IMG/VR virus record: IMGVR_UViG_3300027791_003115
Coordinates: 1-30,590 of that record
Source: a virus
Direction: 5' to 3' (one strand)
DNA: 30,590 nt
Shown here piece by piece: positions 8,748 through 30,590 of the stretch (position 1 is the stretch's first letter; every line of letters starts with the position of its first letter). The notes below the pieces were generated by a model. The model was given only the letters and a program-made list of their open reading frames with translations, was not told where the DNA came from and ran no database searches. The position numbers and the translations under genes were made by a program.

Positions 8748-8763
8748 AATACATATTTAACAG

Positions 8764-9306: not shown

Positions 9307-9877
9307 TAAAGCTATATTTAGCACGTGCTATCAAATTCATCTGTACCACAATTGCCTGTGCATAAGCCACTGCATGTGACTTCTTGAAGAAGTAGGATCG
9401 GTCAGTGGGTTTAGTCCATACTTCCCTTGTTATTTCTTCCCACTCTTTGTACATCAGCTGTCTCTTGGCAGGACGTATTATTGCCAACACTGCCGCCAGT
9501 TGCTCTATGGTTCTTGGTTGTAGTTTGGACACTATGTTGTAATGGCCATTTAGGTGGAAAAGGTTTTCAACTATCTTTGGATCGTTCAACATGTCCCAGT
9601 CTGGCTCCTGTATCATCAGTTCAACAAGTTCCTGTTCTGATTTGACTTCCTTGTAGATATTGACATTCAAACAGTCTATCTTGAAGTACCCTCTGTCCTC
9701 TGCGTTCTTGTAATCCAACGAAGCGTGCCCTGTGATAGGGTGTTCTGGTACAGCATGGAAGTACACCCCTGTCTTGTGTTTTTCGGACTTGCCGTCTTTG
9801 ATCATCGATGCAGGTGTGTGCTTGAACAATTTTAATGTGCTGTCCCTGTCAACGAAATCTATGTCTACATCAGGCAT
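9290..9877 (-). CDS. miniature DnaE-like (C-family DNA polymerase) core protein
   Basis: A 195-residue protein. It starts at MPDVDIDF, matching the PDxDxDF motif that carries two catalytic Asp of bacterial Pol III alpha (here D5 and D7). GYFKIDCLNV at 63-72 matches the 'GLVKFDFLGL' segment with the third catalytic Asp (D68). 'LQPRTIEQLAAVLAIIRP' (119-136) matches the DnaE region 'L+P..FED+.AL.AL.RPGP'. FKKSHAVAYA (164-173) matches FNKSHAAAYA. The order is the same as in DnaE, but the total is about one sixth of its length. PHP, most fingers, beta-binding and OB parts are absent. It is TAATG-coupled to the 77-aa gene before it. Polymerase activity is not shown; it could be a trimmed polymerase, a decoy or a repurposed fold. 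Confidence 0.72.
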   Translation of the reverse strand: MPDVDIDFVDRDSTLKLFKHTPASMIKDGKSEKHKTGVYFHAVPEHPITGHASLDYKNAEDRGYFKIDCLNVNIYKEVKSEQELVELMIQEPDWDMLNDPKIVENLFHLNGHYNIVSKLQPRTIEQLAAVLAIIRPAKRQLMYKEWEEITREVWTKPTDRSYFFKKSHAVAYAQAIVVQMNLIARAKYSFSATQD

Positions 9878-13425: not shown

Positions 13426-13865
13426 TTTAAATTATCCATTATCTCTTGGAGTTCTTTATTATAGTATGCGAATGTTTTCTCTTGCTGGGACAGGTTGTAT
13501 GTTTCGAACCATCTCTTCTCCTTCTCCGGATCAGCATTTTTCCCTAGGTTTTGTTTTTTTAAATATTCTTGTTTTGAATCTATAATGCTTTGGCTATATG
13601 TTTCTAACCACTTTGTTGACAACGTCATTTCGTATTTGTGATCATAAACATCAACTTTGCCAACTCCTGTGTTCACTAAAATTTTATTTAATCTTAGATC
13701 AGGCCGTATTTTGAAAGGCTCGAACTCCAAGATAAGTTTCTCAGCCATGTCCGGAAGATCAAAGTAATGATGCTTTTGATTGAATGTTTCACCTATTACT
13801 TTGTTGTCACAGACACATTTACATCTAAAAGGTTGTTCGTATGTTAATGATACATTGGTAATCAT
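13422..13865 (-). CDS. protein of unknown function coupled to the radical SAM gene
   Basis: A 147-residue protein. The first 85 residues are beta-rich ('ITNVSLTYEQPFRCKCVCD', 'LILEFEPFKIRPDLRLNKI'), reminiscent of a small beta-sandwich. The remainder is helical and charged (KWLETYSQSIIDSKQEY, WFETYNLSQQEKTFAYY). No signal peptide or catalytic motif is seen. The 4-base overlap with the B12-type radical SAM start means the two are made together, so it may be its partner or substrate carrier (inference). It does not match UvsY, which would be the usual partner near UvsW. Confidence 0.72.
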   Translation of the reverse strand: MITNVSLTYEQPFRCKCVCDNKVIGETFNQKHHYFDLPDMAEKLILEFEPFKIRPDLRLNKILVNTGVGKVDVYDHKYEMTLSTKWLETYSQSIIDSKQEYLKKQNLGKNADPEKEKRWFETYNLSQQEKTFAYYNKELQEIMDNLK

Positions 13866-16769: not shown

Positions 16770-17252
16770 ATGAAAAAAATAAAGAAGAAAAAATACAGCC
16801 AAAGGAAAATATTACAGATCAAGTTAGAAAATACTCTGACTAGACGCAAGAATATCACAGGATTCAAACCCACAGTATCACTTGCAAACTACTGGTTCAA
16901 TCAGTTGAACACAGGATTATTCAACAGTAAATTACCAACTGTTCCTCTTTATATCTTGAGAATGACCGGGGACTGGGGAAGATGCTGGGCCAATTGGGAT
17001 AATAGGAAGTGCAGGAAAGGTACATTTGATCAGAGTGTGATCCCGTATGGTAAATGTGAAATTGATTTTGCTATAGAACTACATTCAAAATATCCTACAT
17101 GGAGAGACTTCATTGAGACACTGGCACATGAGATGGTGCACCTATACCAAATGACTATAATACAAGATCCGTATTCAAATCACAACGCTAACTTCTTTGC
17201 CTTTAGAAATAAATTTAGATTAGCAGGATTAAATCTTTCAAGAACTGGTTAG
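16770..17252 (+). CDS. SprT-like zinc metalloprotease
   Basis: A 160-residue protein. HEMVH (H120, E121, H124) is the zinc-binding HExxH motif, and NHNANFFAF (137-145) gives the third-ligand region seen in SprT ('GH...F'). The N-terminus is very Lys-rich (MKKIKKKKYSQRK), suitable for DNA contact. SprT/Spartan proteins cleave proteins crosslinked to DNA; phage versions are common in marine T4-like genomes, though their targets are not known. It is divergent from the UvsW operon and overlaps the convergent gene at 17238 by 15 bases. A DNA-repair role fits the neighbouring UvsW and endonuclease III. Confidence 0.85.
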   Translation: MKKIKKKKYSQRKILQIKLENTLTRRKNITGFKPTVSLANYWFNQLNTGLFNSKLPTVPLYILRMTGDWGRCWANWDNRKCRKGTFDQSVIPYGKCEIDFAIELHSKYPTWRDFIETLAHEMVHLYQMTIIQDPYSNHNANFFAFRNKFRLAGLNLSRTG

Positions 17253-18008
17253 TACAGTATCTTCAAACTCTTTGTAACTTATAACATTACTGTTCCCTAG
17301 GTCGGTGCCTGTCTGTAGGTAATGTAAGTACTCCGGAGGATCATCATGTACCACAGTGTAATTTACATAAGGCCTCATCTTAAGCATGTCTCTGAATTGC
17401 TTCAGCCATCCGTTCATTATGTCTCCGCCGTTTCTTTCACCATAGTTCTCTGTGTCTTGATAGATGTTGTTTAGTTCACCCGATCCATATTCTCTGAAAT
17501 CGTATCCCACTAGGTAGATGTTCTTGTGTCCGTGTACTCCTGCTGTCCAGAATGACGAAGAGCCGGTCACCCAGTGCGGGTTATTTGGTATCAGATGTAG
17601 GTATGGAGGTCCGCCCCTAGGGTGTCTATTCACTTCCAATGAAGGTGCATAATGCATCGATTTCTCGTACACTTTCTCTTTAACCATTTCTAGCGTTATT
17701 GGAGAATCAACAGAAAAAATAAAGTCAGGCATGAAATCTCTGTACAGTGCATTGCACCCGTATGTCTGTCCTGAGGCTTTGAGTTTAGCCAGGTCAAAGC
17801 CTTTACGTGAAGGGCCATTTCCTATACAGTATGCGTTGCCGTGTGGTTTTGCTTTTACTCTGTCTTCGTAGAAAGCAGTCTCTTGTATCCTTTCTCCCTT
17901 ACGTATTATGAGATGTGTGTTGACTGTCTCGCCCTGATACTGTTGCCACTCTATAGGCTCGATTGGTGTTGGGCCACCAATTGTTTTACCGTTAATTGTT
18001 ATTGCCAT
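17238..18008 (-). CDS. MptE/DUF115-like Rossmann protein, putative sugar transferase
   Basis: A 256-residue protein. After about 65 N-terminal residues, 'CIGNGPSRKGFDLAKLKAS' (about 61-79) followed by GCNALYRDFMPDFIFSVDS matches the DUF115/MptE-like fold found in glycosyltransferases of flagellin and surface-polysaccharide loci. 'TGSSSFWTAGVHGHKNIYL' with LVGYDF is also typical. The N-terminus MAITINGKTIGG resembles the start of phage structural or tail-associated proteins. It is the last gene of the minus glycan operon, and its start overlaps the stop of the GT-B-like gene at 18008. The reaction is unknown; nucleotide-sugar transfer is the best guess. Confidence 0.6.
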   Translation of the reverse strand: MAITINGKTIGGPTPIEPIEWQQYQGETVNTHLIIRKGERIQETAFYEDRVKAKPHGNAYCIGNGPSRKGFDLAKLKASGQTYGCNALYRDFMPDFIFSVDSPITLEMVKEKVYEKSMHYAPSLEVNRHPRGGPPYLHLIPNNPHWVTGSSSFWTAGVHGHKNIYLVGYDFREYGSGELNNIYQDTENYGERNGGDIMNGWLKQFRDMLKMRPYVNYTVVHDDPPEYLHYLQTGTDLGNSNVISYKEFEDTVLTSS

Positions 18009-18880
18009 TATAGATACTTCTCCTCTAGTCTCTTTTTAATTCTGTTCCATGGTAGCCCCTGTTGTATTTCATCTGTCCACCATTCTGTGTATGCTAACTT
18101 ATTTGCCCAGTGTTGTCTATCGGGCATGTTAGGATTGTTAATATTTTCAAATGATTTATTACCAACATCATAGCTTAGACTGGCCTCCGAAACATATACG
18201 GGTATGCCTGAGAATGCCGCGGTCATGGCAGGATTGCTTGAGTGACTTATCACTGCCCATGCTGACTTCAATCTCTCTGTAAGGTCAGTGTCGTCGTATG
18301 TGTTCCTATCTCTTTTGGGACCTACTATCTTTACATCCTTGTACTTCGCAACATCTATTGCAACGTGATTCCTAGGATGCGGTCTGACTACAATCGGTTT
18401 ACTGGTGTACTTCCTTATCTCTGTGATCTGCTGGTTGAACCATGATGACATAGGAGGGTTGTTCCTCCACTGGTGACTGTTTGTGTGTTGTCCGCATAAT
18501 ATTATGTTATTGCCTGTCTGCTTCCATGGCTTCATTTCTATGCCAAACTTTTTCCAACGGTTTGCATCTACGCTGTCGTTAGCAAAGTCGGCTTCTCTGT
18601 TAACACCATTGATTCCTATCTTCCATGTCTCGTTTCTTTTTATGCCGCCCACTTCTATCACAACGACAGGTTTATTTTTATTCCTATAGGAATTCCATAT
18701 GTTACGATACTTTGCCATTCTACCCTGCCATAACACCGACCATATAACAGCAACATCACACTGTCCGTCGTCCTTGTTGACAAACACAGTGTCCCCTGCC
18801 TGCCTCATACTTTTTATAAATGCCTCGAACACAGGCTTAGAATTTAATGGTCCATAATCTGTAAAGCAACTTACTTTCAT
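18008..18880 (-). CDS. capsule-type GT-B-like protein (paralogue A)
   Basis: A 290-residue protein. The second half has PIVVRPHPRNH (about 168-178), AWAVISHSSNPAMTAAFSGIP (about 211-231), then PDRQHWANKLAYTEWWTDEI. The same R-x-[HK]-P, (V/I)(S/T)xxSx(A/P)...(G)(I/V)P and 'LAYxxWxxxEI' pattern recurs in three more genes here (21499, 23316, 26722). Similar motifs occur in capsular polysaccharide proteins of the KpsC/KpsS and CDP-glycerol transferase type, where the conserved His/Ser region binds the nucleotide donor. It overlaps neighbours by 1 and 4 bases. It probably adds a sugar or polyol phosphate to a surface glycan. Confidence 0.65.
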   Translation of the reverse strand: MKVSCFTDYGPLNSKPVFEAFIKSMRQAGDTVFVNKDDGQCDVAVIWSVLWQGRMAKYRNIWNSYRNKNKPVVVIEVGGIKRNETWKIGINGVNREADFANDSVDANRWKKFGIEMKPWKQTGNNIILCGQHTNSHQWRNNPPMSSWFNQQITEIRKYTSKPIVVRPHPRNHVAIDVAKYKDVKIVGPKRDRNTYDDTDLTERLKSAWAVISHSSNPAMTAAFSGIPVYVSEASLSYDVGNKSFENINNPNMPDRQHWANKLAYTEWWTDEIQQGLPWNRIKKRLEEKYL

Positions 18881-19746
18881 CTGTTCTTCCAGTAGTCTAT
18901 TTTTTTTAGTTCCGGTGTTTTTCTTATGTCATCTGCCTTGGAACTTTTTGAATCTTTACGGTCGCCTTTGAAGTGATCTATGTACTGTCCAAGTTCACTG
19001 TTTACGAACACATGATGACCCTTCACTCCTTTTGAATAGCCTATGTCATGTACTTTTGCTGAATGCTTCTGTCTGTATTTTTTTGTTAGGTGCCAGAACA
19101 CATATGAATCGTGCCATTCCAAAAGTTCAAATATATCTGCAGATGTGTAAAGTTTTTCCCAGTCATTGACAAAATTTTGTACCAAGCTGTGTTTCATGTT
19201 GTAACATACAAGTCCACACTCAGGATATTTGTTACTACCACGATCATTTTCTCTGTCTAGATACGTCACTAGTGTATCGTTAGGACATATGCTTTCTATA
19301 AATTGCATAGGTATATCTCGGAATGTGTATGTATCGTCATCTATCCATATCACGTAATCGTAGTCTGTATAAGACTTTACAGCATGTGTTACGCAAGACA
19401 CTTTATAACTGAACTTGACTGCGTCCCACAGATATGATTCTTTCTTTGCATCAAGCCCGCCTTCTGTTGCTAACCTAGGCGAACGCCTCACTCCTCCTGG
19501 TATTTCGTTCAGTTTTCCCATCGCGACAGGATCATTTTTGTAGTGCTCTCGGAACTTTTGCAGTCCTGTGTTTGCTTTGTCTATGTCTATCCATGTCACA
19601 TCGTGTTCAAAATCTGTAGGTTTCTGACCTTGATAGTACACTGTAACATCGGCACCTATCCACCTGTCCAACACAGACTGAACCATCCTTTTTGCATACC
19701 TGTCCCAATTGCCTGGTTTGAAGGTTGTTATTACTTTGTATATCAT
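18877..19746 (-). CDS. GT-A-fold glycosyltransferase
   Basis: A 289-residue protein beginning MIYKVITTFKPGNWDRYAKRM, a beta strand and nucleotide-sugar-binding start. WIDDDTYT (about 134-141) holds the D-x-D metal motif of GT-A enzymes. 'NKYPECGLVCYNMKHSLVQ' and 'ELLEWHDSYVFWHL' fit acceptor-binding parts. No membrane segment, so a cytoplasmic enzyme acting on a lipid- or protein-bound acceptor. It overlaps AsnB and the paralogue A gene by 4 bases each. The sugar donor cannot be told. Confidence 0.7.
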   Translation of the reverse strand: MIYKVITTFKPGNWDRYAKRMVQSVLDRWIGADVTVYYQGQKPTDFEHDVTWIDIDKANTGLQKFREHYKNDPVAMGKLNEIPGGVRRSPRLATEGGLDAKKESYLWDAVKFSYKVSCVTHAVKSYTDYDYVIWIDDDTYTFRDIPMQFIESICPNDTLVTYLDRENDRGSNKYPECGLVCYNMKHSLVQNFVNDWEKLYTSADIFELLEWHDSYVFWHLTKKYRQKHSAKVHDIGYSKGVKGHHVFVNSELGQYIDHFKGDRKDSKSSKADDIRKTPELKKIDYWKNR

Positions 19747-21497
19747 AATTTTATTTTATATTTTTTTATCCAGTCGTTAATTATCCATGCTGGCACAAGT
19801 GCCTTGCCTGCTTTCTGACTGGTCTTTACGATATCAAGACCGCCCTCGCCTGTTAATGCTTTGTTGTAAAAGTCAAGTAGTCTTGTGCTAGTAGCTTTTG
19901 TTAACCAATACCCCAGTGGCACTGTCCATCCTGTCTTTTCTTTTTTAATAATGAAACCCGGCAAATGATTTAGATATGCTTTTTTAGTTGGCATTTTTGT
20001 ATTTGCTTTGTTGCCTCCTATTTTATCCGAGACCGGTATACTCATACAGTACTCCATGAACATCTTTGTTGCTAAGGGGAATCTACCTTCCATGCCATAT
20101 GCCATTCCAAATTTATCATTCCTGTTAAAGAATTCCTCGGGTACCTGTGTGACACAATCCAGCGCCATGTATGAAGCTACCGGATCCTCAGGATTCCATA
20201 GGTCATCCGGATAACATTTTTTAAGTTCTTCACACACTTGTTCTCTTGATAGTGTTGCACCCATTGTAGTGCCTGAGATTGGACGTTTGATCCTCTGCAC
20301 CCATAAAGCTAAAACATCGTCCCATGACTCCAATTGTTCTTTACCTATCATTTTTTTAAGATAATCCGGTTGTCTCATCTTCCAGTACTTGGGATATCCA
20401 CCCAATATCTCATCTCCCATGTCTCCGGCCATTGTCACTACAATACCGTTGTCATGCAGAACTTTATTGGTGTAACAGTACATGGCAATGCTTTGGTTGT
20501 ACATGGGTTGCTCCATGTAGTATATTGAATCATCCCAACTGTCTATGATATTGTCTGGTGTGATCTTAACAACTGTGTGATTGTAGCCTTCTACCTTTGC
20601 CAGTTTCTCGGCCGCATCGGCATCGCTGTTGAAGTTTTCTTCTGTGATAATATTGGGTTTCATCTTGTTCGTAAACGTTACTGCAGGTCCACTTATCATG
20701 TTTAGTTCATGTGCAATAAGACTTGAGTCCAGGCCGCCACTTAAGAACACCCCTATCTTTCTTTTTCCTATGCTACACATCTTCACAGTCTTCCTGGCCA
20801 TGTCTTTAAATTCCTTAGCGTTGAACTTGTGATTGCTTGTTGGCTTTATGAATACTCTTTTTGTTTCTACAAATTTTTTATTTTTGATATCGTAAACTTT
20901 AGTCTCCCCTGCTAACAATTTCTTTATCCCGCTGAACACAGTATTACGTGTGGCATTGATACCGGTCCATGCAAGACAACTCATGGCCAGCTGATTAATA
21001 GTACGTGCATTTGGCACCTTTTCCAACATGCCCTTTATCTCTGATCCAAACACTAATCCCTCGTCTATCTCTGCATAGTAAACAGGTTTTATACCTGCAT
21101 GATCTCTGCTCAATGTGATTTTGTTCTCATCAATTTCATAATATGCAAACCCATGCATGGAGTCTATCTCATCAATAAAGTTTAACCCAAACTTGTCTAA
21201 CCCCCAAGCAAGTAGCTCTGTGTCGCAACCAGTCGTGTCGGCAAAGTCTTTATATTTTTCTTTTAGTTCGTAGTAGTTGAATATCTCTCCGTTGTACACA
21301 AGCATGTTGCCCTTGGGGGTCTTCCATGGCTGTTGTGACTGATCGGGTGATGCCATTATACTTAAAAGATTGTGTCCTAGCGTGACTGTGTCAGATGTCC
21401 AAACACTCTCTCCATCTGGTCCTCTGTGCTTACAAATGTCTATGAAGCTTTGTATAAACTCAGGATCCTTTGCTGTTATTCCGTATATCCCACACAT
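19743..21497 (-). CDS. asnB: asparagine synthetase (glutamine-hydrolysing), AsnB type
   Basis: A 584-residue two-domain protein of normal length. The glutaminase domain begins MCGIYG with the N-terminal Cys nucleophile, HRGPDG (24-29), NGEIFN (69-74) and D92 in GCDTELL. The synthetase domain has the PP-loop SGGLDSS (253-259) and GDMGDEILGGY. One oddity: where E. coli AsnB has HERLSIVD, with Arg49 contacting glutamine, this protein has GHNLLSIM, with Leu44 at that place. In glycan loci AsnB-like enzymes may amidate sugars (as in WbpS-type proteins) rather than make asparagine. Its place in the middle of the glycan operon favours that (inference). A plain asparagine supply is the alternative. 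Confidence 0.9.
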   Translation of the reverse strand: MCGIYGITAKDPEFIQSFIDICKHRGPDGESVWTSDTVTLGHNLLSIMASPDQSQQPWKTPKGNMLVYNGEIFNYYELKEKYKDFADTTGCDTELLAWGLDKFGLNFIDEIDSMHGFAYYEIDENKITLSRDHAGIKPVYYAEIDEGLVFGSEIKGMLEKVPNARTINQLAMSCLAWTGINATRNTVFSGIKKLLAGETKVYDIKNKKFVETKRVFIKPTSNHKFNAKEFKDMARKTVKMCSIGKRKIGVFLSGGLDSSLIAHELNMISGPAVTFTNKMKPNIITEENFNSDADAAEKLAKVEGYNHTVVKITPDNIIDSWDDSIYYMEQPMYNQSIAMYCYTNKVLHDNGIVVTMAGDMGDEILGGYPKYWKMRQPDYLKKMIGKEQLESWDDVLALWVQRIKRPISGTTMGATLSREQVCEELKKCYPDDLWNPEDPVASYMALDCVTQVPEEFFNRNDKFGMAYGMEGRFPLATKMFMEYCMSIPVSDKIGGNKANTKMPTKKAYLNHLPGFIIKKEKTGWTVPLGYWLTKATSTRLLDFYNKALTGEGGLDIVKTSQKAGKALVPAWIINDWIKKYKIKL

Positions 21498-21498
21498 A

Positions 21499-22482
21499 TT
21501 ATAATCCTAATTTCTTTTTGAATCTCTTGAACACTGTACCGTCCTTTATCTCTGCCTCGGTCCATTGTTTGTAACCAAGGTCGTACACCCATTGATCCCT
21601 GTCAGGGTATTCGGGTGTTTCTATGTTTGATAGATCTTTGTTTGCTACAGGCCAAGCGAGTGCAAGATCTGAGGTAACAAAGGTAGGGATTCCACGAATG
21701 CAGGAATCGATACAGGCAGTAGAATTGTGAGTAACAACAGCATGACAATTATTCAATGCGTCCTGGTAGTTGAATCTATAATGCTTTTTTTCATCTCCCT
21801 TGAAAAACTTCTGTCCTATCACTACCTGTACATCTGCGGGGAATTCGTTTATTCTTTTCTCTATTGCGGCAACATGATTGGGGTGTGGCCTAACTATAAA
21901 TTTTCTGTCTGTCATTGGCCTCAGTTTTTCATACACATCATTAAACCACTTGATAGGATCTAGCTCGTTCATGCTCCAGTTGTCCTGTGGTTGTAGCACA
22001 AACAGTATCGGGTCTTTTTGATTTGATTTCCTCCATGGAGCGTAGTTTATATCCCAAATCTTTTTCATTTTTTCCCATCTGTCAGGGGGACTGTTGTCAC
22101 TTAAGAAGTTTCCGTTGTTCATTGGTGAGTACAGTGCCACACGCCAGTGATGATTGGCATCTGTTATTGTGTTGCCAAAGCTGGACATTATTCCACCGTC
22201 GAATGTTATTATGTGTATGCCTTTCTTCTTTGCACGTTCTACTAGGTCTCTTCTGCGTCCTTTCGTGTGGTGCATCTGGTTAGTTCCTCCGTATCCAAAC
22301 ATACATCCAATTGGTGCCGTAGGTTCCATTTCGTTTTTATCCCATGGTCCTACTTTATTTTCGTTTACAATGACCGGTTGGTCGCCACATGCCTTGATTC
22401 CCGTGGCCATGTGTTGCAGTAGATCCCAACTGGCACCTCTACGCCTGTCCTTCACTGTCCTTCTAAATATCTCAACTTTCAT
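21499..22482 (-). CDS. capsule-type GT-B-like protein (paralogue B)
   Basis: A protein of about 327 residues, the largest of the four paralogues. It shows FIVRPHPNH, then CHAVVTHNSTACIDSCIRGIP and 'PDRDQWVYDLGYKQWTEAE', the family pattern, plus a longer N-terminal half with FGYGGTNQMHH and TFDGGIMSSFGN. I prefer the ATG at 22482 because AAGGA lies 9 bases upstream; the ATG at 22488 would be only 3 bases from it. It overlaps the FkbM gene and ends 1 base before AsnB. A glycosyl or polyol-phosphate transferase role is inference from KpsS-like motifs. Confidence 0.65.
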   Translation of the reverse strand: MKVEIFRRTVKDRRRGASWDLLQHMATGIKACGDQPVIVNENKVGPWDKNEMEPTAPIGCMFGYGGTNQMHHTKGRRRDLVERAKKKGIHIITFDGGIMSSFGNTITDANHHWRVALYSPMNNGNFLSDNSPPDRWEKMKKIWDINYAPWRKSNQKDPILFVLQPQDNWSMNELDPIKWFNDVYEKLRPMTDRKFIVRPHPNHVAAIEKRINEFPADVQVVIGQKFFKGDEKKHYRFNYQDALNNCHAVVTHNSTACIDSCIRGIPTFVTSDLALAWPVANKDLSNIETPEYPDRDQWVYDLGYKQWTEAEIKDGTVFKRFKKKLGL

Positions 22483-23326
22483 ATGCATCTTTCCTTATAA
22501 AAAGCATTTCCAACATCAGTTTGTCTCTTTTCCTGTTTATCACGACATCATAGTTGTTTACCTTGAACTTGTCGCATAGTATCTGTGCTTTCTCCAACGC
22601 TGGTTCGACCTTCTCATCCTTCTCAAAATTTAACTCAAGTTCCATTGCTAGGAACTTAAAGTCAATCTTCTTGTCTAACAACTCATGACCAAACTCCCAC
22701 CACAAGCCTTCTATGTCTGCTTTGAGTATATCAACACTTGATAGGTTAAGCTCTCTCATTATAGTTTCTAAATTTTTAGCCTTTACATCCACGGACTCAA
22801 AGTGTTCTTGTCTTTTTACTAGGGAGTAACTTTGTTCTAGGTTACGTACAACTTCCTCCTTGCTCCTCTTCTTCCCGTTTATCTTTAACTGCCCCGGCTC
22901 ACGTTCCGGATCGTAGTAGAAAGGCAGTGTGCCGTTTACCTGGGCATATGCGACAGGGTTAAAATGTAGTCTTTTTGAAATGGACACGTTTTGATGACCA
23001 GAAGAATCTGACTCGTCTCTAATTTTTTTTCTACTTGATCCTCGTATAATTGTACGTATCAATGCAACACTTCTTGGAGTTGGGTCATATAATTCGGCCT
23101 GTATGTCCTTGTTGTCCCATGCTAGTTCCTTTTCAAATCCAACATTGCCTCCCACACCAAAACTCAAAACGGTCTTACTAGTCTTTGCAATAGATTCCGG
23201 AACAAAATAGTTTTTGTACAATTTGAATCCTTTGAGATCCTTTGCCTCTTTGAAATTGTTCTTATTTTCCCAATCTCTTATTAGTTTGACTCTCTCAATT
23301 ACATGTGATTTCATTCTATCTGCCAT
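22472..23326 (-). CDS. FkbM-family methyltransferase-like protein
   Basis: A 284-residue protein. VLSFGVGGNVGFEKELA (about 51-67) sits at the SAM-binding glycine-rich loop, AELYDPTPRS matches the acidic residue ending strand 2, and VDILKADIEG (about 200-209) is the FkbM hallmark (VDLLKIDVEG). Next comes FLAMELELN. FkbM enzymes O-methylate sugars and related natural products. It overlaps genes on both sides, by 11 bases each. A second FkbM protein lies at 28294 in the other arm. A capping or modifying methylation of the glycan is likely (inference). Confidence 0.75.
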   Translation of the reverse strand: MADRMKSHVIERVKLIRDWENKNNFKEAKDLKGFKLYKNYFVPESIAKTSKTVLSFGVGGNVGFEKELAWDNKDIQAELYDPTPRSVALIRTIIRGSSRKKIRDESDSSGHQNVSISKRLHFNPVAYAQVNGTLPFYYDPEREPGQLKINGKKRSKEEVVRNLEQSYSLVKRQEHFESVDVKAKNLETIMRELNLSSVDILKADIEGLWWEFGHELLDKKIDFKFLAMELELNFEKDEKVEPALEKAQILCDKFKVNNYDVVINRKRDKLMLEMLFIRKDAYES

Positions 23327-24131
23327 CTAATATCTCCATGTAATACCCGCTTCTAAATTCTTCCTGTGTGAATTGGTTGTAGGCAAGACTGTGCAACACA
23401 GGTCTCGGATCCTCGTATCTCGGTGTTTCTATCTTTGAGAAGTCCTGTTCACACACTGGTAAACAAGGATTGTCAAAGTTAGCAAACGCTGGTACGCCGT
23501 TGGTAAGTGCTTTAATTGATATAGAACTGTTGAAGGTCACAACTGCATGGACCTTGTCCCACTCGAATGGCTTAGGCGGTTTGTTATTGGCACTCTTACC
23601 AGGCACCATCTTTCCCTCTCCGTCTATAACCGCTTTAGGATTGTAAGGTTTCTCTCTCACAATAATTTCTCTGTCTGTGTTATCTTTTAAAACTTTCATT
23701 GTGTTGTCCAACCAATCCTTACCGTCAAACATCTCTGCCATGGCATGGCTAGGTGGCACTACCAACACATACGATCCGTTTTTATGGAAAGGCTTTATCT
23801 CATCCTTGTATTGTATCTTGAACCTATCATCTGGTCTGTGATCAACAAATGTTTTGACGTGTTGATTCTTAACACATCTCATCCAGTAAGGAGTTGCCCT
23901 GCTTTCTCCCCAGTAAGGTCTGTCTATGTAGTAGAAATCTTTTTTATTATCTTGACAGTGTTTGTAAACTAGATGTGTACCACGCAAGACTCCCATGAAC
24001 ACAACTTTATCAAAATCAGTTGTACTCAACACTGTTTCGTAGTTTGTAAGTTTACAGTTTGTAATTCCCCTTGACGCACTCTCGACATATTTTTCAGTGT
24101 TGGGCCTTTCAGTTCTCACAGCATAATTCAT
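23316..24131 (-). CDS. capsule-type GT-B-like protein (paralogue C)
   Basis: A 271-residue protein. It has FYYIDRPYWG, GSYVLVVPPS, EIIVREKPYNP, HAVVTFNSSISIKALTNGVP and SLAYNQFTQEEF, the family pattern. It is closest to paralogue D at 26722 (GSYILVCPSS, SLAYQQFTPEEF, WFTDTPYFG), so the two probably arose by duplication, though they lie on opposite strands. His in the R-x-H-P motif of A and B is replaced by Lys here (REKP). Its start/stop touches the 2OG oxygenase gene at 24131. Sugar or polyol-phosphate transfer is the likely activity. Confidence 0.65.
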   Translation of the reverse strand: MNYAVRTERPNTEKYVESASRGITNCKLTNYETVLSTTDFDKVVFMGVLRGTHLVYKHCQDNKKDFYYIDRPYWGESRATPYWMRCVKNQHVKTFVDHRPDDRFKIQYKDEIKPFHKNGSYVLVVPPSHAMAEMFDGKDWLDNTMKVLKDNTDREIIVREKPYNPKAVIDGEGKMVPGKSANNKPPKPFEWDKVHAVVTFNSSISIKALTNGVPAFANFDNPCLPVCEQDFSKIETPRYEDPRPVLHSLAYNQFTQEEFRSGYYMEILDGR

Positions 24132-24898
24132 TATCTTACCTCTTGCACGTTGTACATTGTTGAATAACCTCTTTTGAATTCTCCAATTATGTTCACGCTT
24201 CTCCTGTTGAGTGTTGCATTTTGTCTCAGAGATACTCCGTGTACAGTGTTAGGTGAATTATTTGCAAACATCACAAATGTATTCCTCTTGTAAGGTATTG
24301 TTTTGACTACAGTGCCAAGGTCACTATCATAAATTTGCCTTCCGGCCTTCTTGTTAACTTTCTGCACATTTGACTGTGTTGAATAAATTTGGAATTCTCC
24401 ACCTGTACTTTGATCATTTGGATACGGCATGTACAACAATCCTGCCCACATCTCCATTGGATTGTCTATGTGAGGTGTACGTGTGGTTTTTTCTTCTATG
24501 GGTTTGTGCATGACCAATTGACAATCAGTCCATATGTTTTTATTTTCGTCTGCCCAACCTCTTGCACCCAAGTCGTCCTCTGTGAATGTCTTGTGCAATA
24601 CGTTTGGCATGTAAGGTTTGAATAGCTCATTTACTTCGTTGAACCATTCCGCAGATGTGTGATACTTTGTGAATTCTTTCCATACTCCAGGCATGTTTTC
24701 TTTTGGATTCAATATTTTGTCTGCCTTCAATCTATAACAGATGTTGTTGTCGTAAGCATTTTTTTGTTGCAAGACCATTGACTCTGGGAAACTGTTTTCT
24801 AGTGCCTCGTAGAGATCCCATGGTAAGGCGTCTTGTATGATCACGTGTGGGTAAGGATCTGTCTGTACTGTTGGTTTTTTCTGTAATAATGAATACAT
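24131..24898 (-). CDS. 2-oxoglutarate/Fe(II)-dependent oxygenase
   Basis: A 255-residue protein. HID (H143, D145 in TPHIDNP) and H220 (NTVHGVS) make the iron-binding facial triad, and R232/R233 (NRRSVNI) would hold 2-oxoglutarate. The double-stranded beta-helix region spans about 125-240. Such oxygenases are frequent in cyanophages and relatives, and most have unknown substrates. Among glycan genes it may hydroxylate a sugar, lipid or peptide acceptor (inference). It follows the GT61 gene by 19 bases, a gap with a TATAAT (minus strand) but no clear -35, and overlaps the next gene by 1 base. Confidence 0.85.
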   Translation of the reverse strand: MYSLLQKKPTVQTDPYPHVIIQDALPWDLYEALENSFPESMVLQQKNAYDNNICYRLKADKILNPKENMPGVWKEFTKYHTSAEWFNEVNELFKPYMPNVLHKTFTEDDLGARGWADENKNIWTDCQLVMHKPIEEKTTRTPHIDNPMEMWAGLLYMPYPNDQSTGGEFQIYSTQSNVQKVNKKAGRQIYDSDLGTVVKTIPYKRNTFVMFANNSPNTVHGVSLRQNATLNRRSVNIIGEFKRGYSTMYNVQEVR

Positions 24899-24917
24899 GG
24901 TTATATTATAAGTGATA

Positions 24918-26012
24918 TCAGTCTAGATGTCTAATTAATTTAGGAATGTCAACATCAAAATTGATTAGATCATTTCGTCTTTTCACACCCTTTGGTTTTT
25001 TACCATCTGTTGCTATTGGTGTTGTCTTTGCAACAAAAATCTCGTGCTTCAGTTTCAAGCTGTTTGATAGCAACGGATACACTTTTTTGTGTAACATTTT
25101 TCCGTCTTGTATCTCAACTATCTTTGTTCCTTCTCTACACCACAGGGCATTGACCATGCCCGCTCCATGTGTTGCAAGGACGTGTGATGCTTCTGCAAAC
25201 ACTTTCACTTGTTCTTTTATTGGTAGGTCCTCAAGTGTGACAGACTCCCATCCTTTCAGTGCCATTAACAGTTCGCTGGCATTGTTTAATTTCCTAGTGT
25301 GTGCTTTGTCTCGAGATATGTAAATTTTCCTAAATGGTTTTTTGTTCTCTGGTATTCCAAACGATCCCTTGAAGTGACGTAGCCATGGTGGCAAGTGTGG
25401 TGTCACAACCCCGTCATTGCAGTTGCTCATAGATGGTGCCAGTAGATGTTGGAATCTCCAAGTCTCTCCTTCCGGCATAACATAATATTTCAATTTGGGG
25501 AAGAATTCTTTTGCCACCTTGTCAAAGTATGGACTAGGGTTAGCCAGTATGTAAATGTATTTTGTGAAATTAGTGGACCATTTTTTTTCCATTAGCCTAA
25601 ACTTACCAATAACATCGATCCATATGTGCCATGGATTACCTGTGCTATGCTTGTCTATTGGTAGCCAAACATACTTGTTTGTTCCATCAAACTGCTTGGT
25701 CACTACCGGCATCTCGATGTTGATCTCCTCACCCCACGAGTTCCACAGTCCATGGTGTTTTATTGGTTTTTTCTTATAACGGTCTAGGATTGGCCACAGG
25801 TGCTCAGTGACCATGTGCCTATCTTCTGTAATCAATATTGGCAGACTGTTCACTGAACAGTTGTGAAATTCCGCAACAAATGTTGGATTGCTAGTGAACT
25901 TACCTGGCACTGTTGCATGATATTTCATGTTGATGTCGTATGAATTGTCTATGATGTCATATTTGTCTAAGAAGTATCTAATGCTGGTAATGTTTTTTAC
26001 AAGTTGCGACAT
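24918..26012 (-). CDS. glycosyltransferase family 61 (DUF563)
   Basis: A protein of about 364 residues from ATG 26012. The C-terminal half has 'KIYISRDKAHTRKLNNAS', 'VTLEDLPIKEQVKVFAEA', HVLATHGAGMVNALWCREG and KIVEIQDG, a near-textbook GT61 pattern; HGAG is its signature. GT61 enzymes transfer xylose or GlcNAc-type sugars in plants and animals and occur in bacterial surface-glycan loci. The reading frame runs on to 26120, but that would overlap the divergent gene at 26046 by 75 bases, so I chose the ATG at 26012, leaving a 33-base AT-rich divergent promoter region. It is the first gene of the minus-strand glycan operon. Confidence 0.8.
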   Translation of the reverse strand: MSQLVKNITSIRYFLDKYDIIDNSYDINMKYHATVPGKFTSNPTFVAEFHNCSVNSLPILITEDRHMVTEHLWPILDRYKKKPIKHHGLWNSWGEEINIEMPVVTKQFDGTNKYVWLPIDKHSTGNPWHIWIDVIGKFRLMEKKWSTNFTKYIYILANPSPYFDKVAKEFFPKLKYYVMPEGETWRFQHLLAPSMSNCNDGVVTPHLPPWLRHFKGSFGIPENKKPFRKIYISRDKAHTRKLNNASELLMALKGWESVTLEDLPIKEQVKVFAEASHVLATHGAGMVNALWCREGTKIVEIQDGKMLHKKVYPLLSNSLKLKHEIFVAKTTPIATDGKKPKGVKRRNDLINFDVDIPKLIRHLD

Positions 26013-26032
26013 GGGTTTGTTTAGTGTATAAT
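26004..26032 (+). promoter_or_regulatory. divergent promoter region of the glycan island
   Basis: Plus strand: TTGCGA (26004-26009), a 17-base spacer and TATAAT (26027-26032), a fair sigma70-like promoter whose start near 26039 leaves about 6 bases before ATG 26046. On the minus strand TATAAT-like sequences occur in the same AT-rich gap, about 30 bases before the GT61 start, without a clear -35. The two operons diverge from here. Confidence 0.55.
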
Positions 26033-26045
26033 TAATTATTATATT

Positions 26046-26747
26046 ATGCAACCCACTCATATTTTTACCAATGGCTGTTCTTTTCTTACGCAGAGGCCAA
26101 AGGAAGGCGTCGACACACACGTTGGAATGGAACTAGCGAAGATGATGGGTCTCGAAACAGCGTGCCATTTGGGAGGCGGAGGGCGTGGTAACAAGAGATG
26201 TAGTATCACAACCAAAGTTTGGTGTGAGAGTAATAAAGAAATAGCAGAAAAATGTTTTTTTGTAATTGGTATAACATCTGGCCAGAGATTTGATATACCA
26301 ACGACCGACGGATACAAAAAACACAAATTTCCTCAACTTAAAACATCTTGGAGAACATACAAGCCACACATCAATCGCTACACTGAAAAATTTTTTAAAT
26401 ACCTTTTTAATACCTGTAGTTTAGATATGGACGAAATGATGCAGTACGAGTCCCTCGAAGCCACACTTAATTTACAAAATTATTTCAAATTGAAGAAATA
26501 TCCATATGTGATGTACAAAACAATATCAGATCCTGAGATAAAAACAAATTCAGATGATGTCAAAGCACTCTATAGATCAATAGACATGACTAGATATTTC
26601 AAACCAGAGACATCACATAAGGATTACACCGAACAAAATAATCAACATTGTGCGCCTGATGACTGGCACCCATCGGCAATAGGACACCAAGACTGGGCCG
26701 AACAGCTAAAGGAATTTATAGATGCTAACAATCTACGCACCATCTAA
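26046..26747 (+). CDS. SGNH hydrolase-like protein
   Basis: A 233-residue protein. TNGCSF (8-13) is the nucleophile block, CHLGGGGRGN (about 40-49) fits the glycine block II, and DDWHPSAIGH (about 210-219) is the D-x-x-H block. It resembles the proteins at 147 and 27534, though with little identity outside these blocks. The likely activity is removal or transfer of acyl groups on sugars. First gene of the plus glycan operon; its end overlaps the next gene by 26 bases. Confidence 0.68.
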   Translation: MQPTHIFTNGCSFLTQRPKEGVDTHVGMELAKMMGLETACHLGGGGRGNKRCSITTKVWCESNKEIAEKCFFVIGITSGQRFDIPTTDGYKKHKFPQLKTSWRTYKPHINRYTEKFFKYLFNTCSLDMDEMMQYESLEATLNLQNYFKLKKYPYVMYKTISDPEIKTNSDDVKALYRSIDMTRYFKPETSHKDYTEQNNQHCAPDDWHPSAIGHQDWAEQLKEFIDANNLRTI

Positions 26748-27534
26748 TAATAACAAAAGCAAGGCATGGGAAGTGTTCGATGGTGTGCAAAAGTCATGGC
26801 CCGAGCAGGTAAAGACACTAGACAACAGTGTTGCAACAGACCCGTTAGCAAACTCTATGTATTGGGGCTTTGTTAACAACAACATGCAGATGATTAAAAA
26901 GCTGGAAGCACGTAAGCATGAATATTGGTTTACAGACACTCCTTACTTTGGCAGATTTGATAATAATGATCTTCAATCAGATAATCATTACTGGCGTATT
27001 TGTAAGAACAAGATACATGCCAGTTACATTAGGGATTGCAAATCTGATAGGTTTGAGAAGTTTGGTATAAAAATAAAAGCACCTAATTTCAAAGGGTCAT
27101 ATATTTTAGTTTGTCCAAGTTCGGATGGTATAAACAACTACTTAGACAGACCTAACTGGTTAGAGGAAACGGTTGAACAGATCAAACGTTACACTGACAG
27201 GCCTATTAGGATACGACACAAGCCACGTGGCAGGGGCACGTCAGGACCAAGTGAGGCCAAGATCCCACTAGCAGAAGATCTGAAAGATGCTTGGTGTTTG
27301 GTCACAAGTTGTTCTATAGCGGCCATAGAAGCACAGTGCATGGGCATTCCGACCATAGCCGATAACAAGAGTTTCGCCAAGGAGATCGCAGGACAAGAAC
27401 TGGCAGACATAGAGGATCCGTTTTTTGTTGGCGCCGAGGAATGGTTGTACAGTCTAGCATACCAGCAGTTCACTCCTGAGGAGTTTGAGAACGGCAAAGC
27501 AGTTGAGATACTAATGGACAAAGGAATGTTATAA
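26722..27534 (+). CDS. capsule-type GT-B-like protein (paralogue D)
   Basis: A 270-residue protein. YWFTDTPYFG, GSYILVCPSS, PIRIRHKPRG, AWCLVTSCSIAAIEAQCMGIP and SLAYQQFTPEEF follow the same order as in paralogues A-C, closest to C at 23316. HKP replaces HP in the R-x-H-P motif. The long 26-base overlap with the SGNH gene and the TAATG-type junction with the next SGNH gene suggest coupled synthesis of hydrolase and transferase. A KpsS-like transferase role is inference. Confidence 0.65.
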   Translation: MLTIYAPSNNNKSKAWEVFDGVQKSWPEQVKTLDNSVATDPLANSMYWGFVNNNMQMIKKLEARKHEYWFTDTPYFGRFDNNDLQSDNHYWRICKNKIHASYIRDCKSDRFEKFGIKIKAPNFKGSYILVCPSSDGINNYLDRPNWLEETVEQIKRYTDRPIRIRHKPRGRGTSGPSEAKIPLAEDLKDAWCLVTSCSIAAIEAQCMGIPTIADNKSFAKEIAGQELADIEDPFFVGAEEWLYSLAYQQFTPEEFENGKAVEILMDKGML

Positions 27535-28304
27535 TGAAGACTCTAATACATTTTGGTTGTTCTTTTGCAATGGGCAATGGTGTGCCTGAATATATCAAAG
27601 GAATAAAATCCGGTGCAGGTGCAACTGCTCCCATGAACAGAGGGAACTTCAAAAAGAAATACGGAATGAATGCCGAAGCTCCGCACACGTGTGGTTCAAT
27701 TCTTGCAAAAAAACTAGGAATAGAATTCAAAAAAATTGCAGAGAACGGGGTCAGTAATGAGATGATAGCACGTAAATTACCACAGACTAAGGGACGTAAA
27801 GTATTTGTGCTGATAGGTCTGACCAGTTACAACAGGCGTGAGGCACTGACAACTAGCCGTAACAACTCATATTGGCACACGTGGAAAATGGTTGATCCAG
27901 AAGCTCCTCCTTATTATAAGGATCTACCGTTCACTCCATGGATATATCGTGGAGAAACACACTATACTCCAGCACTAGAGGCCGATGGTCAAATTAGAAC
28001 AGCTTTACAAATACTGTACATGCAGTCTTTCTTGAAATTAAACAATGTTCCATATCTGATGTTCAACGCACTGCATAACGGGTTTGACGACCCACTGACC
28101 TACGAATGCAAAAAACTTTTGCAACAGGTGGACCAGAAACATTTTTACAAACTACAAGGTAGCTTTGATGAGGCCCAGCATGGGTGGTGTTTAAAGAGAA
28201 AACTTACTGTGTCTGATCTAGATGAACATCCAAATGTAGCAGGACAACGGGCATGGGCCGATGAATTACAGGAAGTTGTAAAGGACATCTGGAATGCAAA
28301 TTGA
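27534..28304 (+). CDS. SGNH hydrolase-like protein
   Basis: A 256-residue protein. HFGCSFAMGNG (6-16) is the nucleophile block and DLDEHPNVAGQRAWADEL (about 229-246) the D-x-x-H block; the latter resembles 'DDWHPSAIGHQDWAEQL' of the protein at 26046, so they are probable paralogues. An EKIAENGVSNE-like 'KKIAENGVSNEMIARKLP' (about 63-80) fits block II. It is bracketed by paralogue D and an FkbM methyltransferase, with 1- and 11-base overlaps. Probably an acyl-sugar esterase or transferase. Confidence 0.68.
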   Translation: MKTLIHFGCSFAMGNGVPEYIKGIKSGAGATAPMNRGNFKKKYGMNAEAPHTCGSILAKKLGIEFKKIAENGVSNEMIARKLPQTKGRKVFVLIGLTSYNRREALTTSRNNSYWHTWKMVDPEAPPYYKDLPFTPWIYRGETHYTPALEADGQIRTALQILYMQSFLKLNNVPYLMFNALHNGFDDPLTYECKKLLQQVDQKHFYKLQGSFDEAQHGWCLKRKLTVSDLDEHPNVAGQRAWADELQEVVKDIWNAN

Positions 28305-28923
28305 AAAAATTAACGGATTCTGGGTACCATCGAATGATGTACACATCGAAGATTGGAAAAAAGATAAAAGTTTCACACAGAACAAGTGTCTCGAAAAACT
28401 TATTACCTACTGCAAAAATAAAGATGTAAAGTTCAATCATGTATTAGATATCGGGGCATGGGTGGGCACATGGACCATGGCTATGAATAAGTTCTGTGGC
28501 AGAGTTATTGCTTTTGAACCAGATCCCATACACTACGAATGCCTTGTAAAGAATTGTTCAGAAGACGTTGAAACACATCAACTTGCTGTTGGGAATGAAG
28601 AAAAGATGATATCATTATCTAAAGATGATTTCACACAAGCGAAACGTGTGGTCGGAGATGGCACGATACCCATGACAACTATAGACAGTTTAAATCTTAA
28701 AGATGTAGACCTGATAAAGATTGATGTTGAGGGATATGAAATGGAGGTCCTGAAAGGTGCTAATGACACTTTACTAAATGTCGAGTATCTCATGATAGAA
28801 TTAAACAACAACACAAAGAAATACGGTAGCAGTAATTTAGAAATTGAAAACTATCTTGCCGGAAAAGGATACAGGGAAATGATCAAAGTATGGCCGGATG
28901 TTGTATGGCGTAAAAAAGGGTAA
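28294..28923 (+). CDS. FkbM-family methyltransferase
   Basis: A 209-residue protein. VLDIGAWVGTWT (about 50-61) is the SAM-binding motif I, VIAFEPDPIHYECL is the post-II acidic site, and VDLIKIDVEGYEMEVLKGA (about 145-163) is the FkbM hallmark, followed by YLMIELN. It should O-methylate a sugar hydroxyl. It is a much more canonical member than the FkbM-like protein at 22472, so the pair may act on different positions. It overlaps the preceding gene by 11 bases and lies 13 bases before the epimerase. Confidence 0.88.
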   Translation: MQIEKINGFWVPSNDVHIEDWKKDKSFTQNKCLEKLITYCKNKDVKFNHVLDIGAWVGTWTMAMNKFCGRVIAFEPDPIHYECLVKNCSEDVETHQLAVGNEEKMISLSKDDFTQAKRVVGDGTIPMTTIDSLNLKDVDLIKIDVEGYEMEVLKGANDTLLNVEYLMIELNNNTKKYGSSNLEIENYLAGKGYREMIKVWPDVVWRKKG

Positions 28924-28936
28924 CGTAAATAGACAT

Positions 28937-29941
28937 ATGAAGATTTTCATTACAGGTGTAGCAGGATTTTTAGGATCGCATCTAGCAGACTTAATGATAT
29001 CCGAAGGCCACACTGTTGCTGGCAATGATAACATGATTGGTGGTTACACAGATAATGTCCCCCAAAATGTAGAATTTCATCAAGTGGACTGTTGCAATTT
29101 AGAAAACATGACCAAAGCTATGGAAGGTTGTGACATAGTATATCACACTGCCGCTACTGCCTACGAAGGGCTCTCTGTTTTTTCTCCTGTGCTTGTTACG
29201 AGAAATATTTTTGAAGCATCTGTTACAACAATTACAGCGGCCATAAGGAACAAGGTTAAACGTATCGTGTATTGTTCAAGCATGGCAAGATATGGGCACC
29301 ATGATAAGATGCCGTACAAAGAAGATTACGAATGTCGTCCACAAGATCCATATGGTATTGCAAAGAAGGCCGGGGAAGATGTATTGAGAAATTTATGCGA
29401 AACACATGGTGTAGAATATGTTATTGCTGTGCCACACAACATAGTTGGTCCAAGACAGAAGTACGATGATCCGTTTAGAAATGTAATGTCTATCATGTTG
29501 AACAGAATGCTACAAGGCAAACAACCTATTATATACGGTGATGGTATGCAACAAAGATGTTTCAGTTATATCGACGATTGCTTGTATTGTTTGAACGCAC
29601 TTGCATTCCAAGACAATGTTGTTGGCGAAGTTATTAACATAGGACCAGACGAAGAACCTATAACAATCAACGAGTTAGCAGAGGCATGTGCCAACGAAAC
29701 AGGCATTAATCTAGATCCTATACATCACAAGGACAGACCAAAGGAGGTCAAACTAGCAGTGTGTTCGTCAGACAAAGCAAGAGATTTATTAGGGTATAGT
29801 ACAGCAACAGACATGAGAAAGTCTGTTAGAAAGACTGCTGAATACATTAGATCCAGAGGCACAAAGAAATTTCAATATCACTTACCTTTAGAAATTATTA
29901 ACGATAAGACACCGGATACCTGGAAGAATAAACTAATATGA
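28937..29941 (+). CDS. NAD-dependent nucleotide-sugar epimerase/dehydratase
   Basis: A 334-residue extended SDR from ATG 28937. GVAGFLGSH (7-15) is the NAD-binding G-x2-G-x2-G motif, CSSMARYG carries the catalytic Ser, and YGIAK (Y139, K143) is the Y-x3-K pair. GPRQKYDDP, 'GDGMQQRCFSYIDDCL' and NIGP are typical of UDP-glucose/GlcNAc 4-epimerases and relatives. It would supply an activated sugar to the transferases here. The frame could start at 28898, but that lies within the FkbM gene and adds 13 residues before the Rossmann start. Its TGA overlaps the next ATG (ATGA). Confidence 0.9.
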   Translation: MKIFITGVAGFLGSHLADLMISEGHTVAGNDNMIGGYTDNVPQNVEFHQVDCCNLENMTKAMEGCDIVYHTAATAYEGLSVFSPVLVTRNIFEASVTTITAAIRNKVKRIVYCSSMARYGHHDKMPYKEDYECRPQDPYGIAKKAGEDVLRNLCETHGVEYVIAVPHNIVGPRQKYDDPFRNVMSIMLNRMLQGKQPIIYGDGMQQRCFSYIDDCLYCLNALAFQDNVVGEVINIGPDEEPITINELAEACANETGINLDPIHHKDRPKEVKLAVCSSDKARDLLGYSTATDMRKSVRKTAEYIRSRGTKKFQYHLPLEIINDKTPDTWKNKLI

Positions 29942-30590
29942 TTTCTTTTTGTTGTCCATCGAGAGGCAGGCCTACTCTAGCAAAGAGATTAGTAGACACA
30001 GCTACTGAAACACAACAGGGTGAAACAGAATTCCTTTTCTATCTTAATGATGACGATCCCACATTAGAACAGTACAAAGATTTACTGGACGAAAAGCACT
30101 ACACAGTTGGGCCAAATCAATCGACTTGTTACAGTTGGAATCTAATGGCAAAGAAAGCTAAGAATGACATTGTGATGTTAATGGGTGACGATGTGCAAGT
30201 GCAAACAACAGGATGGGATGAAAAAATAAAAAAGCAAATAGACGAATACAAGGACAAGATTCTAATGGTTGTACCTAGTGACGGTAGAACAAAAGGCACA
30301 CTGAACCTAACAGATAAAATAAAACTATGGCCAGACAAGCCATTACCCGCGGCACACTTTGCTGTACACAAAAATTGGATTAACACACTAGGCTACTTGG
30401 CTCCACCTTTCTTTTGGCATTGGCATGTTGATTCGTACACACAGAAAGTTGCACGTAAGTTGGGAAGATGCCTCTATTTGCCAACTGTTGCGTTCAAGGC
30501 AAAGAAGATGTTTGACGATACAGGTAAGCAGGTGCGTACACACCTAAACATCAACAACAGGGATAACTTTGTTTGGGATAAGGTAAAGCA
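29938..30590 (+). CDS. GT-A glycosyltransferase-like protein, 3' end outside the window
   Basis: The frame starts ATG at 29938 (ATGA overlap with the epimerase) and stays open to the window end, giving 217 codons. The start MISFCCPSRGRPTLAKRLVD matches the N-terminus of family-2-type GT-A enzymes (P-S/T-R-x-R-P). LNDDDP (about 38-43) and MLMGDDV (about 81-87) supply acidic metal- and nucleotide-binding motifs. 'WHWHVDSYTQK' lies further on. The plus glycan operon therefore continues beyond this window. Confidence 0.75.
   Translation, partial: MISFCCPSRGRPTLAKRLVDTATETQQGETEFLFYLNDDDPTLEQYKDLLDEKHYTVGPNQSTCYSWNLMAKKAKNDIVMLMGDDVQVQTTGWDEKIKKQIDEYKDKILMVVPSDGRTKGTLNLTDKIKLWPDKPLPAAHFAVHKNWINTLGYLAPPFFWHWHVDSYTQKVARKLGRCLYLPTVAFKAKKMFDDTGKQVRTHLNINNRDNFVWDKVK

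Follow-up and report, generated by a model that had tools for sequence, protein, structure and literature searches.

Gene content and organization of the island

The DNA analysed here is a 30,590-base viral fragment (IMG/VR virus record IMGVR_UViG_3300027791_003115; the whole stretch is called the window), of which positions 17238–30590 form an island of 15 intact genes for sugar transfer and modification, nine on the minus strand and six on the plus strand. A previous sequence-only reading described this region as a 13-kb divergent glycan island, and the two-armed arrangement proved real: the 15 genes lie where that reading had placed them, on the same strands, and dozens of independent contigs preserve their order. 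The five transferase classes it counted were also recovered, namely KpsC-like (four paralogs, Kps1–Kps4), GT61, GT2, a DxD-type GT-A and DUF115/MptE-like. Profiles were taken from Pfam, TIGR/NCBIfam and PHROG with curated cut-offs applied. Among the modifying enzymes that had been named (two FkbM methyltransferases, two SGNH proteins, a 2-oxoglutarate (2OG) oxygenase, an AsnB-type amidotransferase and a sugar epimerase), FkbM2, AsnB and the epimerase score above these cut-offs, SGNH2 at the cut-off and the 2OG oxygenase and FkbM1 just under it, while SGNH1 is recognized by its motifs.

The outermost gene of the minus arm (17238–18008) encodes a DUF115/MptE-like protein (phrog_30607, 1e-21) that is a possible GT42-like, sialyltransferase-type transferase. 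Over the N-terminal nucleotide loop its profile has a weak match (E 0.03) to the CstI/CstII sialyltransferases of the PDB, and relative L138 encodes a similar-looking protein with a weak MptE-like match; its AlphaFold model, with a pLDDT of only 33, was assigned no fold. Towards the centre follow Kps1 (18008–18880), a KpsC-like GT-B paralog of Kps2, Kps3 and Kps4 carrying an RPHP motif of the cytidine monophosphate (CMP)-binding type; a GT-A-type glycosyltransferase (GTA, 18877–19746) without a Pfam match, whose DxD is present in 57/57 distinct relatives; the AsnB-type glutamine amidotransferase (19743–21497; PF00733, 158 bits; TIGR01536, 287 bits with a cut-off of 267); Kps2 (21499–22488), a KpsC-like GT-B paralog with an invariant RPHP and a weak match to the putative glycosyltransferases of DUF6716; the FkbM-like methyltransferase FkbM1 (22472–23326; PF05050, 3e-4, under the cut-off); Kps3 (23316–24131), a divergent KpsC-like member assigned by paralogy, with REKP in place of RPHP; the 2OG-Fe(II) oxygenase (24131–24898; PF13640, 25 bits, under the cut-off), with HxD in 30/30 distinct relatives; and the GT61 glycosyltransferase (24918–26012; PF04577, 71 bits). 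Sequence-profile searches of the PDB returned nothing credible for the Kps proteins or the GT-A.

A 33-bp intergenic region (26013–26045) with an early-type promoter sequence separates the arms. The plus arm opens with SGNH1 (26046–26747), an SGNH-fold esterase/acyltransferase-like protein with GCSF and DxHP in 43/43 distinct relatives, and continues with Kps4 (26722–27534), a divergent KpsC-like paralog; SGNH2 (DUF6071; 27534–28304; PF19547, 27.3 bits); the FkbM-family methyltransferase FkbM2 (28294–28923; PF05050, 72 bits; TIGR01444); an NAD-dependent nucleotide-sugar epimerase/dehydratase (28937–29941; PF01370, 160 bits); and a GT2 glycosyltransferase (29938–30588; phrog_14945, 1e-27; PF00535 just under the cut-off) that is cut by the contig end. 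A T4-late-promoter-like element, CGTAAATAGACAT (28924–28936, plus strand), lies between the FkbM2 stop codon and the epimerase ATG. From the N-termini and upstream regions of relatives, the most likely starts of GT61 and the epimerase are 26012 and 28937, respectively, where the open reading frame list gave 26120 and 28898. The epimerase was not identified as the nonulosonate enzyme LegB, its top NCBIfam match, which scored 127 with a cut-off of 475.

The earlier expectation of a plus arm extending beyond the window is borne out for no more than the final ~20 codons of GT2, which spans 234–250 amino acids in relatives and 217 within the window; the genes beyond it in relatives are on the minus strand. 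Two relatives (L025/L003) are 99.99% identical to the window over 18 kb, with zero mismatches in 29001–29900, and then drop to ~63–81% per 75 bases in GT2. This drop at the epimerase/GT2 boundary is either a GT2 allele exchange or a chimeric contig end.

Conservation, selection and exchange slots

Relatives were collected by IMG/VR scans with AsnB, GT2 and UvsW as queries, which gave 8, 157 and 531, respectively. Many of these loci were overlapping pieces of the same contigs, and merging shared sequence yielded 106 groups, of which 42 retain five or more of the eight core genes and 13 the full set. In dozens of uncultured marine relatives the island is located between uvsX and uvsW. The sprT and DUF115 genes adjoin in 45/45 loci holding both, after which the island continues in constant order; in the window, the SprT-like metalloprotease-type gene (16770–17252, plus strand) faces the island.

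Ratios of nonsynonymous to synonymous substitution (dN/dS), calculated by the Nei–Gojobori method against relatives and with dS often saturated, were 0.02–0.18 across the island, apart from a single comparison at 0.01; neighbouring phage genes gave 0.03–0.17, and the phage's own helicases lay in a comparable range. The epimerase is 84–97% identical among the sampled relatives (dN/dS 0.02–0.04) and keeps its Rossmann and YxxxK motifs in 49/49 distinct relatives, and the AsnB PP-loop is kept in 35/35. Gene decay, which the sequence-only reading had named among the findings that would contradict it, was not found: the genes are intact, their catalytic motifs are kept and they are under purifying selection.

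The fixed backbone comprises the DUF115-like gene, the four KpsC-like paralogs, GT-A, GT61, SGNH1 and FkbM2, joined in most relatives by the epimerase–GT2 pair, which was not seen in L009 and L097. Variation is concentrated in four slots, for which the tallies are counts of loci rather than of independent events. Slot A, between GTA and Kps2, holds AsnB in 31 loci, a sulfotransferase in five and a methyltransferase in three, and is empty in seven; slot B, between Kps2 and Kps3, is empty in 48 of the 61 loci with a simple interval and holds FkbM1 in 13. Slot C, between Kps3 and GT61, contains the 2OG oxygenase (34 loci), GMD with an additional GTA (13) or a different putative transferase (five) and is empty in 18, whereas slot D, between Kps4 and FkbM2, is empty in 33 and holds SGNH2 in 15, SGNH2 being missing from about two thirds. 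A second type of sulfotransferase precedes the epimerase in four loci. Pfam confirms the sulfotransferases and the slot A methyltransferase, and GMD is backed by Pfam and by TIGR01472, the latter just under its cut-off. The GT61–SGNH1, SGNH1–Kps4 and epimerase–GT2 junctions are never interrupted in the loci tabulated.

AsnB keeps its cysteine nucleophile (C2) and the SGGLDSS PP-loop. D352, R388 and K450 (aligned E. coli numbering) are also kept, and the glutamate of the E. coli SGEGSDE is replaced by aspartate in 8/8 phage copies aligned; an intact aspartate site would be expected if asparagine were the product, and these residues give a mixed picture. Since its slot is swapped with other modifying enzymes, the pattern suggests that AsnB acts as a decorator rather than in asparagine supply.

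The KpsC-like family and the CMP-sugar hypothesis

Kps1–Kps4 are mutually paralogous, as SGNH1 and SGNH2 are of each other, and none matches a Pfam family above the cut-off. An AlphaFold model of Kps4 made with 27 aligned family members reached a pLDDT of 84, and its best 14 Foldseek matches in the PDB were KpsC, WbbB and KrkA (E 4e-6 to 1e-3); the viral matches included proteins of other phages and, from Tetraselmis virus 1, proteins whose names refer to capsule biosynthesis. Retaining transferases of 3-deoxy-D-manno-octulosonic acid (Kdo) share a (K/R)XHP CMP-binding motif, as in sialyltransferases, and a QXXXD nucleophile motif, although in KrkA itself the K/R of (K/R)XHP is replaced (PMC12887879). 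RPHP is present in 37/39 distinct relatives of Kps1 and 43/43 of Kps2, and in 0/54 of Kps3 and 0/51 of Kps4. QXXXD is absent from all four paralogs of the window, where the alignment shows GQHTNS, LQPQDNWS, PPSHAM and CPSSDG. Kps1 and Kps2 thus probably bind a CMP-sugar, and the four proteins have a predicted KpsC/WbbB fold, but because QXXXD is missing they are not classed as Kdo transferases. There are two additional hints in this direction: relative L097 carries kdsB, encoding CMP-Kdo synthetase, inside the island (NF003952, above the cut-off), and in L138 a protein with a cytidylyltransferase domain adjoins an MptE-like protein. That protein (L138:13211–15209) has its cytidylyltransferase domain fused to an RraA-like domain and belongs to a different variable region, beyond gp41.

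Close relatives of the family are phage-borne. A scan of 85,000 prokaryote genomes for Kps2, using short patterns and therefore not exhaustive, returned just nine contigs; six or more of these are misbinned phage contigs, judged by the phage core or island genes alongside. In a profile search of 398 Pseudomonadota genomes the family appeared in five: one phage contig, two full-length distant relatives and two short partial matches in large proteins. As the two full-length relatives lie on long contigs, the idea that the family is exclusive to phages was dropped. Inference of the host from metagenome-assembled genomes (MAGs) was also abandoned, since Kps2 matches of 61–77% sit on contigs with island genes, three of four of which also carry uvsX, uvsW or gp32, and so represent misbinned phage. 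Contigs of this phage group (L094, L095, L096 and L097) occur within GTDB MAGs labelled Gammaproteobacteria, Verrucomicrobia, Pelagibacter and Rickettsiales; the porin of the window (see below) has no match in those MAGs, which is uninformative.

Promoter-like elements

The divergent centre contains TTGCGA-17 bp-TATAAT on the plus strand (26004–26032). In 20/20 distinct relatives the centre has TATAAT, an early-type –10 box, and in 0/20 the late-type core TAAATA. Taken overall, the scan for sites of the TTGCGA-17-TATAAT type showed no excess of them.

Late signals were compared with the T4-type late promoter motifs TATAAATA and NATAAATA. A virion structural gene (7944–8747, minus strand) is preceded in 42/42 loci by TATAAATAC (8748–8771 in the window), which matches the known late promoter of T4 and cyanophages (PMC2984593). 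The late-type motif, with core TAAATA, lies upstream of the structural gene in 13/13 cases, the terminase in 6/6 and c11 in 11/11, and was found in none at uvsX, uvsW, gp32, gp41 or gp61. At the epimerase, TAAATA stands 4–8 nt before the ATG in 47/47 unique upstream regions and in 17/17 representatives below 85% identity; it persists where a sulfotransferase replaces the preceding gene, and no Shine–Dalgarno-like sequence accompanies it. Elsewhere in the island the motif occurs only in a minority of GTA copies (33/86), so that the epimerase is the one island gene at which it is consistent. The epimerase form, (T/G)TAAATA, is a weaker match than TATAAATA, which itself occurs in the window at chance frequency (1 against 1.85 expected), and its weight rests only on conservation across relatives. 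In the PA5oct-type phage PAC2, a calibration tallied by eye gave ATAAATA at 8/36 late and 0/28 early or middle genes, and the looser TAAATA at nine and three, respectively; TTAAATA also precedes some of its early or middle genes. Late specificity is thus supported for ATAAATA and less so for TTAAATA.

The position of the late-type elements, ending 4–8 bases before the ATG, suggests late mRNAs that may be leaderless. Given TATAAT in 20/20 relatives without a late element at the centre, and TAAATA in 17/17 at the epimerase, the island probably consists of an early divergent unit and a late epimerase–GT2 unit. Outside the island, a TAAATAC element (13871 region, minus strand) precedes the gene at 13422–13865, which adjoins a B12-radical-SAM-like gene.

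Phage identity and genomic neighbourhood

For UvsW, a C2H2 protein and the terminase (taken from relative L012), the nearest counterparts are those of PA5oct-type (Arenbergviridae), Phosso, Atu_ph07 and 121Q-type jumbo phages; for UvsW the best match is Phosso, followed by PA5oct-type phages. The nearest cultured relatives are thus jumbo phages of 280–490 kb (PA5oct/Phosso/Atu_ph07 group). A megablast of 17.6 kb against cultured phages gave zero matches. The order terminase–c11–gp32–UvsX–c2–UvsW–11420–10770–C2H2–Pol III fragment recurs in PAC2 and Phosso. On the basis of these similarities and this core order, the window probably derives from the genome of a marine jumbo phage; all IMG/VR contigs found are themselves fragments, the longest being 61 kb. 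The earlier label of a T4-like phage therefore applies in the broad sense of the T4 superfamily and not in the canonical one, this being a marine phage related to PA5oct-type jumbo phages (Arenbergviridae).

About 14 kb from the island, the window encodes a porin of the Gram-negative outer-membrane type (1978–2910, plus strand; PF13609, 7e-20) with a signal peptide and a C-terminal phenylalanine, related at 54–62% to proteins in L146, L151, L166 and L169. A phage-encoded porin suggests a Gram-negative host and possibly receptor replacement. The DNA polymerase III alpha-like fragment (9290–9877, minus strand) recurs at the same position in PA5oct-type and Phosso phages and suggests a polymerase divided into pieces. 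Three radical-SAM-type proteins (811–1815, 5753–6898 and 11947–13425), one B12-binding in appearance, are encoded in the window, with more downstream of GT2 in relatives, and a third SGNH-like protein, judged by eye, lies outside the island (147–824, plus strand) beside tRNA-Arg (47–123).

Proposed function and alternative explanations

Synteny, purifying selection, slot exchange, the KpsC-like fold and the kdsB gene of one relative make joint action of the genes on a glycan a well-supported prediction. To this extent the sequence-only proposal that they build and decorate a surface glycan stands; 'build' is probably too strong. No membrane segment was evident in any island protein, and no flippase, polymerase, export gene or lipid-carrier initiating transferase was seen in the island, which argues for extension or capping of an existing acceptor in the cytosol.

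The explanation we favour, at a little short of an even chance, is a long-resident phage locus whose enzymes work in the cytosol to extend and decorate an envelope glycan of the host. Soluble enzymes would use host nucleotide sugars during infection, Kps1 and Kps2 probably taking a CMP-activated ulosonic acid such as CMP-Kdo as donor, and a short acidic oligosaccharide would be added to an intermediate of a host lipopolysaccharide (LPS) or capsule chain. It would next be methylated, amidated, hydroxylated, acylated or sulfated and placed on the cell surface by the host's own export machinery, where it would alter the receptors and shut out competing phages. Transcription of the divergent centre would probably be early, with epimerase–GT2 probably reinforced by a late promoter. 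A host envelope glycan is favoured by the enzyme families, kdsB, the outer-membrane porin and the early-type promoter. Several points weigh against this assignment. The TM-score of Kps4 to KpsC-type structures is moderate (0.4–0.5), a likeness at the level of the fold only; the absence of QXXXD makes the donor uncertain; Kps3 and Kps4 have lost the histidine of RPHP; kdsB was found in a single relative; and the 17/17, 20/20 and slot counts were drawn from mutually related sequences. The sequence is compatible with either the host surface or the virion as target, and the sequence-only reading rightly allowed for both.

The late-type element at epimerase–GT2 (17/17) suits a virion function better, and the island may instead glycosylate the phage's own capsid, tail or fibre proteins: enzymes produced ahead of and during assembly would attach and decorate a glycan that alters adsorption or shields the particle. 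This reading, somewhat unlikely but a serious rival, draws on an element shared with the structural gene, the terminase and c11, on enzymes that all appear soluble, on a locus resident in the phage lineage rather than recently acquired from hosts, and on a Kps4 homolog in Caulobacter phage CcrSC that adjoins tail-fibre and FkbM genes; it is weakened by a main divergent promoter region lacking the late element (0/20), an island without a structural gene and fold matches to LPS and capsule enzymes. A bolder variant, which we consider quite improbable, would make Kps1–Kps4 a phage-borne family of CMP-ulosonate transferases that, with the late epimerase–GT2 pair, build a Kdo or nonulosonate glycan on the virion from host LPS precursors, the decorators being swapped like serotypes. 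Phage glycosyltransferases and 2OG oxygenases can also act on DNA, and the island adjoins replication and recombination genes, as would suit hypermodification of phage DNA with glycosylated or decorated bases against restriction. That proposal is very unlikely, however, as neither the window nor the island has a recognizable hydroxymethylase, base-modifying kinase or TET/JBP-type gene, enzymes of the KpsC-like, GT61, FkbM and SGNH families act chiefly on surface glycans, and PA5oct-type relatives lack the island. Least credible of all is that host-derived genes were gathered passively, or serve as headful filler, with no joint function. 'Stuffer DNA' was raised as a possibility for cyanophage LPS clusters (PMC3037559); here it was rejected on dN/dS, which is low for every gene, and on motif conservation, with promoter-like elements and gene order also kept across dozens of contigs.

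Comparison with known systems

Knowledge of surface-glycan clusters in marine phages goes back two decades; the cited literature gives no direct test of their target. Remodelling of host LPS by such clusters has already been proposed for cyanophages, pelagimyophages and jumbo phages (PMC2984593, PMC3037559, PMC7029224, PMC7824862). In the present case an abundant uncultured marine lineage, with 531 UvsW relatives from one IMG/VR scan, carries the cluster in fixed form and order and under strong selection, and the cluster's constant core, named slots, predicted donor class (CMP-activated acids) and two promoter types turn the choice between host and virion into a specific, testable question.

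The T4-like cyanophages P-SSM2, S-SM2 and S-SSM7 also carry large glycan-synthesis blocks within the marine T4 superfamily, and a role in altering the host's surface was proposed for their LPS clusters (PMC2984593, PMC3037559). Those clusters were described in a few larger genomes, whereas the island is lineage-fixed and combines a constant gene order with KpsC-like paralogs and slots open to exchange. Pelagimyophages similarly combine clustered glycosyltransferases and methyltransferases, with a 2OG oxygenase in HTVC008M and a sulfotransferase and Kps-like genes in Mosig EXVC030M, and these two phages hold homologs of GT2, GTA, FkbM2, Kps3 and Kps4 at 25–38% identity. Their clusters are, however, smaller, differ in content and order, and stand beside ribonucleotide reductase and primase genes rather than at uvsX–uvsW. 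PA5oct-type jumbo phages (Arenbergviridae; Wroclawvirus) resemble the lineage in terminase (54% identity), UvsW (52%), the C2H2 protein (36%) and core gene order, but in PAC2 and Phosso the uvsX–uvsW interval lacks glycan genes. With KpsC (GT107), WbbB (GT99) and KrkA (GT140) the phage Kps proteins share the predicted fold and, in Kps1 and Kps2, the (K/R)XHP motif; they differ in lacking QXXXD, in consisting of one short module of 270–330 amino acids and in having no significant sequence match in the PDB. Relative to these systems, what is new here is the lineage, a fixed backbone with exchange slots, the family of KpsC-like paralogs and the presence of two promoter types.

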